This document shows, one piece after another, positions 14,062 to 19,195 of a DNA stretch of 64,000 nt. Every line of letters begins with the position of its first letter. Positions within the stretch are counted from its first letter, which is position 1. The position numbers were made by a program, and so were the translations under genes. The notes beneath the pieces are model-generated. The model saw only the letters and a list, made by a program, of their open reading frames with translations, was not told where the DNA came from and searched no databases. Origin of the DNA: Halosegnis longus (GTDB lineage Archaea; Halobacteriota; Halobacteria; Halobacteriales; Haloarculaceae); assembly GCF_009663395.1 (NCBI RefSeq), contig NZ_QKNW01000001.1, positions 744,001 to 808,000 on the forward strand, written 5' to 3'.

Positions 14062-14259
14062 ATGAACGCCGTACTGCCAGCGCTCCAGGCGATACCGGAA
14101 CTAACCCCCGTCTCCATCGGCACCACCATCGTCGTCGTCCTGCTCGCTATCTTCGCCGCCCGACTCCTGTTTTCGATTGCGATTCGGGTGGCAGTCGTGG
14201 CGGCCATCGTCGCCGGCCTGCTGTGGTACTTCGGGCTGTTCCAGCTGCTCCCCTTCTAG
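14062..14259 (+). CDS. small membrane protein (65 aa)
   Basis: The protein has two closely spaced hydrophobic helices (about residues 17-38 and 40-62), separated by few polar residues (SIAIR). A TATA-like AAGCTTTTG lies about 25 nt upstream. The frame overlaps the convergent trpG stop by four bases. There is no recognised family. The composition and the promoter support a real gene. Confidence 0.6.
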   Translation: MNAVLPALQAIPELTPVSIGTTIVVVLLAIFAARLLFSIAIRVAVVAAIVAGLLWYFGLFQLLPF

Positions 14260-14831
14260 AGCGTCGCGAGGAAGTTGTCGATGATGTCGTGGCCGACGCC
14301 CGTCAGCACCGACTCAGGGTGGAACTGGACCGCCTCAAGTGGGAACGACTCGTGGCGAATCCCCATCACGAGCGCGTCCTCGTCGGCCGTGCGCGCCGTC
14401 ACGTCGAACGCCGCGGGCACCTCAGTCGCGATGAGGGAGTGATACCGGCCGGCCTGGAACCCCTGTTCGAGCCCGACGAAGACGCCCTCGCCGTCGTGGT
14501 CGATCGGCGAGGCCTTCCCGTGGACCGGTTCGGGCGCGCGCCCGACCGTGCCGCCGTACTCGTAGGCCGCGGCCTCCAGTCCGAGACACACACCGAGCGT
14601 CGGCACCTCGGGCGAAAGCTCCGTGAGCACGTCCGCCGAGACGCCCACGTCGCGGTCGTGTTTCGGGTGGCCCGGTCCCGGCGAGATGATGATGCCCTCG
14701 GGGTCGTGGCTCCGCACGGCATCGAGGGAGGCGATGTTCTTCTCGACGGCCACGTCGATGCCGTGTTGGCTGACGTACTCCACGAGGTTGTACGTGAACG
14801 AGTCGTAGTTGTCGACGATGACGACGGTCAT
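14256..14831 (-). CDS. trpG: anthranilate synthase, glutamine amidotransferase subunit
   Basis: TrpG supplies ammonia from glutamine to TrpE in the first step of tryptophan synthesis. The class I amidotransferase triad is Cys82 (GVCLG), His171 and Glu173 (QFHPES). The oxyanion region SPGPGHP is at about 50-56. The residues after the nucleophile are CLGLEA rather than the usual CLGHQA, an odd but probably tolerated change. At 191 residues it has normal length. The ATG overlaps the trpE stop (ATGA). Confidence 0.93.
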   Translation of the reverse strand: MTVVIVDNYDSFTYNLVEYVSQHGIDVAVEKNIASLDAVRSHDPEGIIISPGPGHPKHDRDVGVSADVLTELSPEVPTLGVCLGLEAAAYEYGGTVGRAPEPVHGKASPIDHDGEGVFVGLEQGFQAGRYHSLIATEVPAAFDVTARTADEDALVMGIRHESFPLEAVQFHPESVLTGVGHDIIDNFLATL

Positions 14832-16390
14832 GGTTCCTCCGTGATGGCGTCGAGCGCATCGAGCACGCCGCCCATCTTCTTTTCAGTCTCCTCGTACTCG
14901 CGTTCGGGGTCGGAGTCGGCGACGATACCCGCGCCGGCCTGCACGGTAATGCGGTCCTCCTCGCCGGCGGTGTCGACCGTCGCCGTCCGGATGACGATGG
15001 CGAAGTCCGCGTCGCCAGACCACGAGTAGTAGCCGACGCCTCCGCCGTACAACCCTCGGGGCGTGCGTTCGAGGTCGTCGATAATCTCCATCGCGCGCAC
15101 CTTCGGCGCACCAGAAAGCGTCCCGGCGGGGAACGCCGCGCGCGTCGCGTCGAACGCGTCCGAGTCGGCGGCGAGCGTCCCCGTCACCGTCGACTCGATG
15201 TGCTGGACGTGCGAGTACTTCAACACGTTCATGAACTCATCGACGCGGACGCTGCCGGCCTCGCTCACCCGGCGTACGTCGTTGCGCGCGAGGTCCACGA
15301 GCATCGTGTGCTCGGCCCGCTCCTTCCCGTCGGCGAGCATCTCGCCGGCGAGCCGGCGGTCCTCGACGGGCGAGGAGCCGCGGGCGCAGGTGCCGGCAAT
15401 CGGGTTGGCCATCACCTCGGTGCCGCGCACGGAGACGAGCGTCTCGGGCGACGCCCCGACCACGGTTCGGTCACCGTAGCCGAGCAGGTACATGTACGGC
15501 GAGGGGTTCACCTCGCGGAGCGCACGATAGAAGCCGAGCGGGTCGACCTCGCCGGTCCGTTCGCGGGTGCGCGAGATGACGCCCTGATAGATGTCGCCGT
15601 CGAGGACGTGCTCTTTCGCGCGGTCGACCGCGTCCTCGTACTCCGGCTGTGGCCCGGCGGTCTCACCGGTCTGCGTGAAGCCGCCGGTCTCCGGCGGGTC
15701 GGCGCGCGCGAGCAGGTCCTCGACGCGTTCGACCTCGCTTGCGAGGGCGTCGTACACCCGTCCCGCGTCGGACTCGTCGACGACCGGCGTGCAGACCAGC
15801 GAGAGGGTGTCGGCCTCGTCGTCGAAGACGAGCGTCTTCGTGTTGAGGACGAACTGCGCGTCCGGAAACGCCGTGTCGGGACGGTCGACGCCCACCTCGT
15901 CGAGCCAGAGGTCGTAGACGGCTTCGTACGCGAGAAAGCCGACCAGCCCGCCGTCGAGGTGGCGGCGACCGCTCGCGTCGAAGTTCTCGCGAGGAAGGTC
16001 CGGCAGCGCAGACCGGAGGGCGTCGATGCAGTCGCCGTCGGCGTCGGGCGCGAGCAGCCCGTCGTAACGGTCGTCGAAGGTCGCCACGTCGGCACCGTCG
16101 GGACCGACCGTGACGACGCCGGCGGGGTCGTAGCCGACGAAGGAGTAGCGGGCGTGGCGGTCGGTGTCGTCGGTCGAGAACGCGCCGTCCGGGTCCGAGG
16201 AGGCGACCTTCTGGGCCGACTCCAGCAGGAACGAGTAGTCCGCGCGGTCGGCGTCTGTCGTCCGGCCGACGAGGGCGGCGTACGCCGACAGCGGCTCCAC
16301 GTCGGCGTCGATGGGTGCGTCCAGTCGGACGACGGTCGGCTCCGTGCCGGCGAGGTCGACGAACTGCTCGCGCGTGGTGTCGAAGCTCAT
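14828..16390 (-). CDS. trpE: anthranilate synthase, component I
   Basis: This 520-residue chorismate-binding enzyme carries the C-terminal signature (DIYQGVISRTRE, ASPETLVSV, NPIAGTCARG, LVDLARNDVRRV, AAFPAGTLSGAPKVRAMEII, YGGGVGYYSW). The N-terminal half, where tryptophan feedback usually acts, is also present. trpF lies upstream with a four-base overlap and trpG downstream with another, so synthesis of the complex is coupled. Confidence 0.95.
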   Translation of the reverse strand: MSFDTTREQFVDLAGTEPTVVRLDAPIDADVEPLSAYAALVGRTTDADRADYSFLLESAQKVASSDPDGAFSTDDTDRHARYSFVGYDPAGVVTVGPDGADVATFDDRYDGLLAPDADGDCIDALRSALPDLPRENFDASGRRHLDGGLVGFLAYEAVYDLWLDEVGVDRPDTAFPDAQFVLNTKTLVFDDEADTLSLVCTPVVDESDAGRVYDALASEVERVEDLLARADPPETGGFTQTGETAGPQPEYEDAVDRAKEHVLDGDIYQGVISRTRERTGEVDPLGFYRALREVNPSPYMYLLGYGDRTVVGASPETLVSVRGTEVMANPIAGTCARGSSPVEDRRLAGEMLADGKERAEHTMLVDLARNDVRRVSEAGSVRVDEFMNVLKYSHVQHIESTVTGTLAADSDAFDATRAAFPAGTLSGAPKVRAMEIIDDLERTPRGLYGGGVGYYSWSGDADFAIVIRTATVDTAGEEDRITVQAGAGIVADSDPEREYEETEKKMGGVLDALDAITEEP

Positions 16391-17007
16391 GCGCGGTGTG
16401 CTCGTTCGACGAACGCCTCGACGGCGTCGGGGTCCTTCTCGCCCGGCGCGGCCTCCACGCCCGACGCCACGTCGACGGCGTACGGCCGGACGGTCTCGAT
16501 TGCCTCGACGACGTTGTCTGGGGTCAGCCCGCCCGCGAGGATGAGGGGCCGGTCGAGGTCGGCGGTCGCGTCGCGCGTCGCCGCCCAGTCGTGGGTCTCG
16601 CCGGTGCCGCCCCCGCCGCCTTCGCTCGGGGTATCGACCAACAGCGCGTCGCCCAGGTTCTTGTACTCGGGAATCTCGTCGGGCGAGATAGCAGGGAAGA
16701 CGGGGCCGCGGAAGCTCTCGATGACGACCGACAGCGAGCCGGGGTCGAGTCCGTGAAGCTGAACGGCGTCCACCTGTACGAGGTCGGCGAGCGTGATCGC
16801 CTGTGCGGCGTTGTCGGGCATCGTGACGAGCGTCGTCGTGACGAACGGCGGGACGCTCGCCTCCAGGCTCGCTGCCTTCTCCGCGGAGATTTCACGCGGC
16901 GAGTCCACGTCCACGTCGACGATGAAGCCGACCGCGTCCGCGCCGGCCTCGACGGCCGCCGCTACGTCCGCCTCGGAGGTGAGTCCACACACCTTCGCGC
17001 GCACCAT
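16387..17007 (-). CDS. trpF: phosphoribosylanthranilate isomerase
   Basis: TrpF performs the Amadori rearrangement of phosphoribosylanthranilate. It is a 206-residue TIM barrel with the catalytic Cys in VCGLTS near the N terminus (Cys7), an Asp in VDAVQLHG (about 123-130), and the C-terminal phosphate site LAGGLTPDNV with DVASGVEAAPGEKD. Its ATG shares one base with the trpD stop. Confidence 0.93.
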   Translation of the reverse strand: MVRAKVCGLTSEADVAAAVEAGADAVGFIVDVDVDSPREISAEKAASLEASVPPFVTTTLVTMPDNAAQAITLADLVQVDAVQLHGLDPGSLSVVIESFRGPVFPAISPDEIPEYKNLGDALLVDTPSEGGGGGTGETHDWAATRDATADLDRPLILAGGLTPDNVVEAIETVRPYAVDVASGVEAAPGEKDPDAVEAFVERAHRA

Positions 17008-18023
17008 CAGAGGCTCACCTCGCCCCCGGCGAGGGTATCGAGCGTCTCGCCCGCAGCGCCCGAGTCGATTGCCTCGCGCGCCTGCTCGACACCGGCCGCG
17101 AGCGACTCGGCCTCGCCGGCGACGTAGATGGCCGCGCCGGCGTTCGCGAGAATGATGTCGCGTTTCGGACCGTCGAGCTCCCCGGTGACGATACCCCGGA
17201 GGTCTGCGGCGTTCTCCGTCGGCGTACCGCCCGCGATCTCCTCGACCGGGGCGCGGTCGAGTCCGAGGTCGTCGGGCGTGACGGTGTACTCCTCGATGTC
17301 CCCGTCGCGGAGTTCGGCGGCGGCGGTGTCGTCGTGGAGCGCAATCTCGTCCATCCCGGAGCCGTGGACGACGAGCGCGCGGTCGACGCCCACGCGGTCG
17401 AGCGCTCGCGCGACCACGGGCACGAGGTCGGGGTCGTAGACGCCGACGACCTGTGCGTCCGCGTCGGCGGGATTGGTCAGCGGCCCGAGGACGTTGAAAA
17501 TCGTCCGGATGCCGAGTTCGCGCCGCGGCCCGATGACGGCCTTCATCGCGGGGTGGAACGCCGGCGCGTGCATGTAGCCGATGCCGTCGCGCTCGATGCG
17601 CTCCTCGACGGCGTCGGGGCTCGAATCCAGGTCGACGCCGAGCTCCGCGAGCACGTCGGAACTCCCCGAGGAGGAGGAGACGGAGTAGTTGCCGTGTTTC
17701 GCGACCGTGACGCCCGCGCCCGCGGTCACGATGGTCGCAGTCGTGGAGACGTTGATGGTGTCGTAGTCGTCACCGCCCGTGCCGCAGGTGTCGACCAGCG
17801 GCCGGCGGTCGGGGTCGATGGTGTTGGCGACCTCGCGCATCCCCTCGGCGAAGCCCGCAATCTCGGCTTCGGTCTCTCCCTTGGCGCGCAGCGCCGCGAG
17901 CAGCGCGCCGATTTGTGCCTCGGTCGCGTCCTCGAAGACGAGCCGTGCGGCGGTTCGCGCCTCCGCCTGCGTCAGGTCCTCCCCGTCCGTCACCCGTTCG
18001 AGGTACTGTGTCATATCCGTCAT
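17007..18023 (-). CDS. trpD: anthranilate phosphoribosyltransferase
   Basis: TrpD joins anthranilate to PRPP. The 338-residue product has the PRPP-binding loop DTCGTGGDDYDTIN, NVST, KHGNYSVSSSSGSSD and RREL...NVLGPLTNP. I chose the ATG at 18023 (MTDMTQYLERV), with an internal ATG nine bases later as an alternative. Frame upstream of this crosses the promoter and the tRNA-Val gene. It is the first gene of trpDFEG. trpCBA are not in the window. Two TGTACA boxes lie between its TATA box and the start. Confidence 0.93.
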   Translation of the reverse strand: MTDMTQYLERVTDGEDLTQAEARTAARLVFEDATEAQIGALLAALRAKGETEAEIAGFAEGMREVANTIDPDRRPLVDTCGTGGDDYDTINVSTTATIVTAGAGVTVAKHGNYSVSSSSGSSDVLAELGVDLDSSPDAVEERIERDGIGYMHAPAFHPAMKAVIGPRRELGIRTIFNVLGPLTNPADADAQVVGVYDPDLVPVVARALDRVGVDRALVVHGSGMDEIALHDDTAAAELRDGDIEEYTVTPDDLGLDRAPVEEIAGGTPTENAADLRGIVTGELDGPKRDIILANAGAAIYVAGEAESLAAGVEQAREAIDSGAAGETLDTLAGGEVSL

Positions 18024-18045
18024 AATGTTCGATACTGTGTTGTAG

Positions 18046-18071
18046 TGTACAAGTCTGTACATTCGTAAAAG
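18046..18071 (-). promoter_or_regulatory. trp operon promoter with two TGTACA boxes
   Basis: On the minus strand, CTTTTACGA (about 18064-18071) is the TATA element. TGTACA occurs at 18056-18061 and again at 18046-18051, exactly 10 nt apart and between the TATA box and the expected start of transcription near 18042. TGTACA is the consensus of the TRP box bound by the TrpY repressor in Methanothermobacter, so this looks like a tryptophan operator. Confidence 0.65.
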
Positions 18072-18142
18072 CGTGTCGGAGCCACGGAGTTGGCGATTCG
18101 AAACCTTCAATTGTACCACCGGGCTACCCGAGAGTGCAACAG

Positions 18143-18217
18143 GGGTTCGTGGTCTAGGCTGGTTATGACACCTCCTTGACATGGAGGAGGCCGGCGGTTC
18201 AAATCCGCCCGAACCCA
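18143..18217 (+). tRNA. tRNA-Val (GAC)
   Basis: GGGTTCG (18143-18149) pairs with CGAACCC (18210-18216), with discriminator A at 18217. The anticodon stem CCTCC/GGAGG encloses loop TTGACAT, giving anticodon GAC. The T arm is GGCGG-TTCAAAT-CCGCC. There is no intron and CCA is not encoded. Confidence 0.95.
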
Positions 18218-18560: not shown

Positions 18561-18968
18561 TCAGCGATACGTTTCCACTTCAACACCGGGCACGGATTCG
18601 AAGTGCCCGTCGGCTGCAAGCACAGGGACATCGTACTCGATAGCGGTTGCAGCAATCGCAGCGTCTCCCTTTCCGATTCCTGGGCCCTCACCGTCGCCTG
18701 CGTCTGCCATCTGCTCACCGAGTAATCGCCCTGCTCGCCGGGCGATACTGGGCGTCATATCCGCCTGTGGATACGATTCGATGACGCCACGGACCGCTTG
18801 CCGTTCAGCGGTGGAACTCGTCGCCGCCCCGACGCCGATCCACAGCTCCAGTATCGTCATCGCGGGGAGCGTGAGGGGGATGTTCTGCAGCTGTAGCTCC
18901 GTCTCTTTTGCTTCGGCTGCCTCCACGCCGTCGATACGGTCGAGAACGAAGCTGGTGTCGACGATCAT
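18561..18968 (-). CDS. vapC: PIN-domain toxin (VapC family)
   Basis: This 135-residue PIN nuclease is probably an RNA-cleaving toxin. All four acidic metal ligands are in place: Asp4 (IVDTSF), Glu41 (ILELW), Asp102 (KGDAAIAATA) and Asp120 (VLAADGHFE). The ATG overlaps the stop of the antitoxin by four bases, the classical VapBC arrangement. It lies in a gene-poor area next to tRNA-Val, which suggests past transfer. Confidence 0.9.
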   Translation of the reverse strand: MIVDTSFVLDRIDGVEAAEAKETELQLQNIPLTLPAMTILELWIGVGAATSSTAERQAVRGVIESYPQADMTPSIARRAGRLLGEQMADAGDGEGPGIGKGDAAIAATAIEYDVPVLAADGHFESVPGVEVETYR

Positions 18969-19195
18969 TTGAGACGGTCCGCGACCTCGTCGGCTTCTTG
19001 GCGGTCGCGACGGTCGGCCTCGTCGATGGCGTTCCGCATGTCGCTCACCTGTTCGTCATCGAAGACTGCTTCGAGATCACCGAAGGTCCGGCCACCGAGC
19101 GCACGCTCGACGGCTTCACTGTACGTCTCGTCATCTCGCTTGTTCTCTCGGAGCCGCTCGTAGACATCGTCGTCAAGACGTATCTGTTTCGACAT
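18965..19195 (-). CDS. vapB: VapB-type antitoxin
   Basis: The 76-residue product has an N-terminal ribbon-helix-helix-like segment (SKQIRLDDDVYERLRENKR, DETYSEAVERALGG). Its charged C-terminal tail (DMRNAIDEADRRDRQEADEV) would wrap the PIN toxin. The ATG at 19195 is preceded by two GTTGACA repeats and a TATA-like CATATC (about 19227-19232), so the operon is probably autoregulated. Upstream in-frame codons have no support. Confidence 0.85.
   Translation of the reverse strand: MSKQIRLDDDVYERLRENKRDDETYSEAVERALGGRTFGDLEAVFDDEQVSDMRNAIDEADRRDRQEADEVADRLK

Follow-up and report, generated by a model that had tools for sequence, protein, structure and literature searches.

Paired TGTACA half sites in haloarchaeal trp promoters as a conserved operator and probable target of a TrpY-family repressor

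In the trpDFEG promoter of Halosegnis longus, two copies of the hexamer TGTACA stand between the TATA box and the start of trpD, raising the questions of whether they constitute an operator, and of which protein might bind it. TGTACA is the consensus of the TRP box, as defined by work on TrpY in Methanothermobacter, and the earlier note on this DNA had suggested that a TrpY-like repressor controls the haloarchaeal operon through the same sequence logic. This suggestion is supported by the present analysis of the window (the whole 64,000-nt stretch of DNA) and of related genomes, in which boxes were found across the class, with a second array at trpCBA, and with a single TrpY-family protein encoded in the Halosegnis genome. 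The boxes are almost certainly a real, conserved trp operator, and a TrpY-family protein is likely to be its binder. The reading as a whole, in which the operator of a haloarchaeal tryptophan regulon is bound by a tryptophan-responsive TrpY-type repressor, is probable; it builds on the observed sites, how they are spaced and conserved and which genes they accompany, and on the finding of a TrpY-family protein together with its predicted fold. The features concerned are as follows, in window coordinates.

14256 to 14831, minus strand: trpG, anthranilate synthase component II (NF041322, 338 bits)
14828 to 16390, minus strand: trpE, anthranilate synthase component I (TIGR01820, 572 bits)
16387 to 17007, minus strand: trpF, phosphoribosylanthranilate isomerase (PF00697)
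17007 to 18023, minus strand: trpD, anthranilate phosphoribosyltransferase (TIGR01245, 426 bits)
18026 to 18031, minus strand: half site at phase 30, CGAACA (consensus CGTACA), columns 30-35, with the C and A at 34-35 conserved at 100%
18036 to 18041, minus strand: degenerate half site at phase 20, AACACA (consensus AAGACG), with columns 20 (A) and 24 (C) conserved at about 100%
18046 to 18051, minus strand: half site 2 at phase 10, TGTACA, an exact match about -10 to -5 from the predicted start site
18056 to 18061, minus strand: half site 1 at phase 0, TGTACA, an exact match about -20 to -15 from the predicted start site
18066 to 18070, minus strand: TATA box of trpDFEG, TTTTA, assigned from sequence
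18074 to 18078, minus strand: BRE-like part, CGACA, upstream of the trpDFEG TATA box, in columns conserved across trpD promoters

Read on the minus strand, in the direction of trpD, the promoter is CCGACACGCTTTTACGAA-TGTACA-GACT-TGTACA-CTACAACACAGTATCGAACATT-ATG. Both hexamers are exact, and their starts are 10 nt apart, as the earlier note had described; its placement of them between the TATA element and trpD also holds, the TATA element itself being corrected from 18064-18071 to the TTTTA at 18066-18070. The distance from this TATA box predicts that transcription of trpD starts at the first A of the phase-20 half site. The earlier note did not include the conserved half box CGAACA, which lies 20 nt beyond box 2 in the direction of trpD. 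On its own, the TGTACA hexamer is slightly over-represented in the window, with seen and expected counts of seven and 2.5 respectively, whereas the exact TGTACA-N4-TGTACA pair occurs once in the window and once in the 2.77-Mb Halosegnis genome, in both cases at trpD. Allowing two or fewer mismatches raised the genome count to 33 sites, compared to 14 for a reversed control, and mostly added background. Two one-mismatch sites in this genome (G000), at 996406 and 1216495, were rejected as targets, as they neighbour unrelated genes and look like background.

Two candidate ATG start codons for trpD are found at 18021-18023 and 18012-18014 (spanning 18012-18023 of the window). The second of these is probably the ancestral one, judging by the alignments to most TrpD relatives, which begin only at about residue 4. 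This better fit implies that the GGTG of other genera, which resembles a Shine-Dalgarno sequence, would have been replaced in Halosegnis by the sequence containing the first ATG. The TrpD protein is 96% identical to that of H. rubeus, from the same genus group. Divergent from trpD, and about 120 nt away, is a tRNA-Val (GAC) gene at 18143-18217; a TTGAAGGTTTCGAA-like element 5' of trpD, seen in several genera, is possibly the promoter of this tRNA. At 18561-19180, the gene for a VapC-like PIN toxin (PF01850) and, immediately upstream of it, that for a VapB-type antitoxin (PF02697) are both encoded on the minus strand.

Conservation was assessed in 110 regions upstream of trpD, from 42 genera of the class, comprising those of the 30 best TrpD matches, and of further sets of 60 and 20 genomes. 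Almost all of the 60 were picked for lacking an exact pair, and most of the 20 had one; with this sampling, the count of exact matches is not representative, and the looser count is biased downwards if at all. The earlier note had recommended searching haloarchaeal trpD promoters for paired TGTACA, and had held that relatives retaining the operon without the boxes would refute its proposal. A pair with two or fewer mismatches over its 12 positions was present in 103 of the 110 promoters, across 42 genera, while 100 rounds of dinucleotide shuffling generated a mean of 0.99 pairs and a maximum of three; the boxes are therefore kept throughout the class, as they are at trpCBA. Other spacers of between 0 and 15 nt, in place of N4, were each found in at most 14 of the 110, except for N14 (89/110), which corresponds to the distance between phases 10 and 30, and therefore separates box 2 from the further conserved half box.

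Weighted by genus and set in a fixed register, the trpD promoters give a consensus, CGACAngCTTAAGtcgaTGTACggATTTGTaCATTAYAAgaCGAAnnCGTACATTGGTG, that describes an element of approximately 58 nt, with boxes at phases 0, 10, 20 (degenerate) and 30. With the same weighting, conservation was 87-100% in columns 0-4 of half site 1, 73-100% in columns 10-15 of half site 2, and 97-100% at the C of each of the four boxes. Once re-fitted to the consensus register, 100 of the 110 promoters had two or fewer mismatches, and the remaining 10 had three; among the loci with named contigs, which partly overlap the 110, three or fewer mismatches were found in 79 of 80. In 106 of the 110 promoters, the start of the TATA motif precedes box 1 by 10 nt.

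The earlier note had also advised looking for a TrpY-type protein with HTH and ACT domains, and the genome does encode one. An ACT-domain search identified P0002, a protein of 167 aa scoring 230 bits against the NCBIfam model NF053754, 'TrpY family transcription regulator' (cut-off 180), a family with no other member in the Halosegnis genome. An AlphaFold model of P0002 from a 48-sequence alignment (pLDDT 91) predicts a winged HTH and ACT protein, with winged-HTH-like secondary structure over residues 13-67, and a beta-alpha-beta-beta-alpha-beta arrangement over 94-166; structure comparison of the predicted C-terminal ACT domain gave a Z of about 10.6, at 2.1 Å over 77 residues. Matches in Pfam were weak and to ACT models only, and a PDB sequence search with P0002 returned only ankyrin-type composition matches and noise. 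A near-invariant VDRRVVD motif may fall within the predicted recognition-helix region. In Methanomicrobia, the TrpY-family proteins have a changed HTH segment, CNGVEIPATHIAKAIG..DRRVVD (L250 7964-8461, L251 7857-8357, L252 7714-8211).

The family is present in 390 of 391 Halobacteria, exceeding the cut-off in 389, and in 238 of 247 genomes across the phylum. Such near-universality means that presence and absence cannot tie the protein to the site, which counts against the main reading, as do two features of the gene itself. Firstly, it is unlinked to the trp genes, being about 640 kb from trpD in Halosegnis; linkage in methanogens was likewise rejected, as none of 20 methanogen loci contained trp genes within up to 16 kb of the TrpY-family gene. 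Secondly, autoregulation through TRP boxes was rejected, as there were no boxes 5' of the gene in 31 haloarchaeal loci, where the best pair had 4 to 7 mismatches out of 12.

The strongest alternative accepts a real, amino acid-responsive operator, but assigns its binding to an Lrp/AsnC-family protein, such as LrpA2/Trh1, rather than to the TrpY family. LrpA2 is induced 14.9-fold in Halobacterium lacking aromatic amino acids, and the 2014 authors working on H. salinarum suggested it as the regulator of trp, contrary to the main reading (PMC4162585). Furthermore, structure comparison finds the P0002 model to be Lrp/AsnC-like over its full length; although this likeness does not by itself place P0002 in the Lrp/AsnC family, it means that a periodic array alone cannot separate binding by Lrp from binding by TrpY. 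Against this, TGTACA is the reported target of TrpY in Methanothermobacter, and the TrpY family, present in a single copy, extends across the whole class, as does the site. Lrp proteins also usually have a gene specificity broader than the trp genes alone, so the specificity seen here is narrower than their norm. An Lrp-type binder is consequently unlikely, and a TrpY-family protein is preferred.

Whether the conserved block is regulatory at all can be judged from trpCBA, an operon headed by trpC that lies about 1.4 Mb from trpD in the Halosegnis genome, and whose array was absent from the earlier note. The trpC promoters of 30 genomes contain a three-box array, CGCAAGcCTTATGTACAnATnaGTnCnTtaaTGTACAaTAATG, with phases of 0, 10 and 20, that ends at the start codon. 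Of 145 class genomes, 49 contain an exact match to all three boxes, while the reversed control matched in 0 of 145; every one of the 30 loci inspected was directly 5' of trpC. The Halosegnis array is weaker, consisting of TGCACA, a poor middle box and an exact TGTACA, which does not favour the main reading. Near-continuous conservation, from CGACA through the TATA box to the start codon, would suit a core promoter element, such as an unusual initiator or BRE, that sets promoter strength without the involvement of any regulator. Yet the TATA box is separated from box 1 by 4 nt in 29 of the 30 trpC promoters, as opposed to 10 nt at trpD, with the 10-bp period kept in both operons, and the exact pairs and arrays are almost entirely confined to trp genes. 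Hence the array, which shifts relative to the core promoter while maintaining its period, appears to be an operator contacted from a single side of the DNA helix, and a purely core promoter role is very improbable.

This gene specificity was evident from the 30 exact-pair loci inspected in haloarchaea, 24 of which were at trpD, with two at a symporter gene and four elsewhere. In all 14 orthologues of an NSS symporter of Haloarcula, a pair with two or fewer mismatches lies at a fixed position, -19; the 16 paralogues listed lack it. The nearest solved structure to this symporter is 4us3, which we take to be MhsT, solved with tryptophan. In Methanosarcinia, nine of 30 exact-pair loci were at trp genes, namely trpC (five), trpD (three) and a trpB-like gene (one). 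Methanomicrobia have the TrpY family, but no exact pair was found at their trp genes, which again runs against the main reading. That the pair is a chance double occurrence of a short palindrome, or an inherited untranslated leader devoid of function, is already contradicted by the conservation data and has next to no probability, for although so short a hexamer as TGTACA often turns up singly in the window, about one trpD promoter would be expected to have the pair rather than the number found, and the unrelated trpC promoter, a transporter gene and another class all show this hexamer with this period.

Several pairs outside trp genes were noted separately. The TGTACAACCCTGTACA pair in G366 is within the coding sequence of a CopA-like ATPase (VYNPVQ), and was taken as chance, as was the additional pair of identical sequence that each of four g20 genomes has, probably in the same CopA-like gene; the exact pairs at L004 and L019, which lack promoter context, were also rejected. 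An exact TGTACAAGTCTGTACA pair is located 3' of a TATA-like sequence at L020 1501-1516 (G109:C1:797650), surrounded by a DUF7344 gene and unnamed genes. The TGTACACATGTGTACA sequence is repeated in several genomes of the methanosarcinal genus g162 (L280, L281 and L283-L285, at about 1501-1516), with no trp gene within 1.5 kb, and may represent another regulon or a repeat.

The trpCBA and trpD1FE1G1 operons of Halobacterium salinarum are both induced without aromatic amino acids (PMC4162585). Combined with the position of the boxes, after the TATA box and across the predicted start site, this makes a tryptophan-responsive TrpY-type repressor the simplest reading. The trpDFEG half sites (consensus TGTACA), being 10 bp apart, would present themselves on one face of the helix, just past the TATA box and across the start site, while the three at phases 0, 10 and 20 would serve as the operator of trpCBA. 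The winged-HTH and ACT protein of the TrpY family, encoded by one unlinked gene per genome, would most likely bind adjacent half sites, and probably as a dimer, once its ACT domains are filled by tryptophan, the putative co-repressor. The bound protein would then block the recruitment of RNA polymerase, or initiation, making repression the expected regulatory effect. When tryptophan is scarce, the protein would leave, and both operons would be expressed.

Genetic work on haloarchaea relies mainly on Haloferax and Halobacterium, for which trp genes and a tryptophan-inducible promoter are everyday tools, and searchable papers identify no regulator of haloarchaeal tryptophan synthesis. Nor do these papers include gel shift or reporter results for a haloarchaeal TrpY at trp boxes, and no earlier report of a haloarchaeal TRP box was found in the open-access papers searched. 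The Haloferax trpCBA promoter was described in 2026 as not tightly regulated, with tryptophan regulation left open, which does not favour the main reading (PMC13147458). With the candidate protein named, the sites located exactly and the regulon delimited, direct testing is now possible.

Comparison with known archaeal regulators places this system closest to that of Methanothermobacter. Tar (TK0271) of Thermococcus kodakarensis is also a transcription factor of aromatic amino acid operons, but is an activator with its own site. The haloarchaeal LrpA1 and LrpA2/Trh1 similarly combine a wHTH with an ACT-like (RAM) domain and act in amino acid metabolism, LrpA2 also responding to the lack of aromatic amino acids, but they probably belong to another sequence family and have no known link to TGTACA; for LrpA1, the suggested site is an inverted repeat in the lrpA1 promoter (PMC2894021). 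In the study that names the Methanothermobacter TRP boxes, the TrpY homologue of Thermococcus does not control trp, which counts against the main reading, and haloarchaeal homologues are noted and described as untested (PMC6737238).

In Methanothermobacter thermautotrophicus, TrpY and the TRP box regulate trpEGCFBAD and trpY. In both systems the targets are trp biosynthesis genes whose promoters carry TGTACA hexamers, and the genome encodes a TrpY-family protein with HTH and ACT domains. TrpY of M. thermautotrophicus regulates trpB2 too, and the trpB-like target in one methanosarcinal genome provides a further likeness. The two systems differ in that the haloarchaeal trp genes are split between two operons, where the half sites, three or four in number, keep strictly to a 10-bp period, and in that the haloarchaeal trpY-family gene is unlinked and boxless, whereas trpY of Methanothermobacter adjoins the trp operon, from which it is divergent, and is autoregulated. 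What is new is therefore a class-wide case of the TRP box and its putative TrpY regulator, in which the half sites form helical arrays of three to four, the trp genes occupy two separate operons, and the regulator gene is unlinked and boxless. Opinion could fairly fall either way on the broader proposal that the TRP box arose long ago as a tryptophan operator, common to Methanosarcinia and Halobacteria, and from the literature to Methanothermobacter, which became a class-wide helical array in haloarchaea, serving two trp operons and the Haloarcula symporter through an unlinked, non-autoregulated and near-universal TrpY-family protein. If so, it would be an unusually strongly conserved archaeal operator, and the comparison suggests that methanogens and haloarchaea have the same tryptophan control sequence in common.
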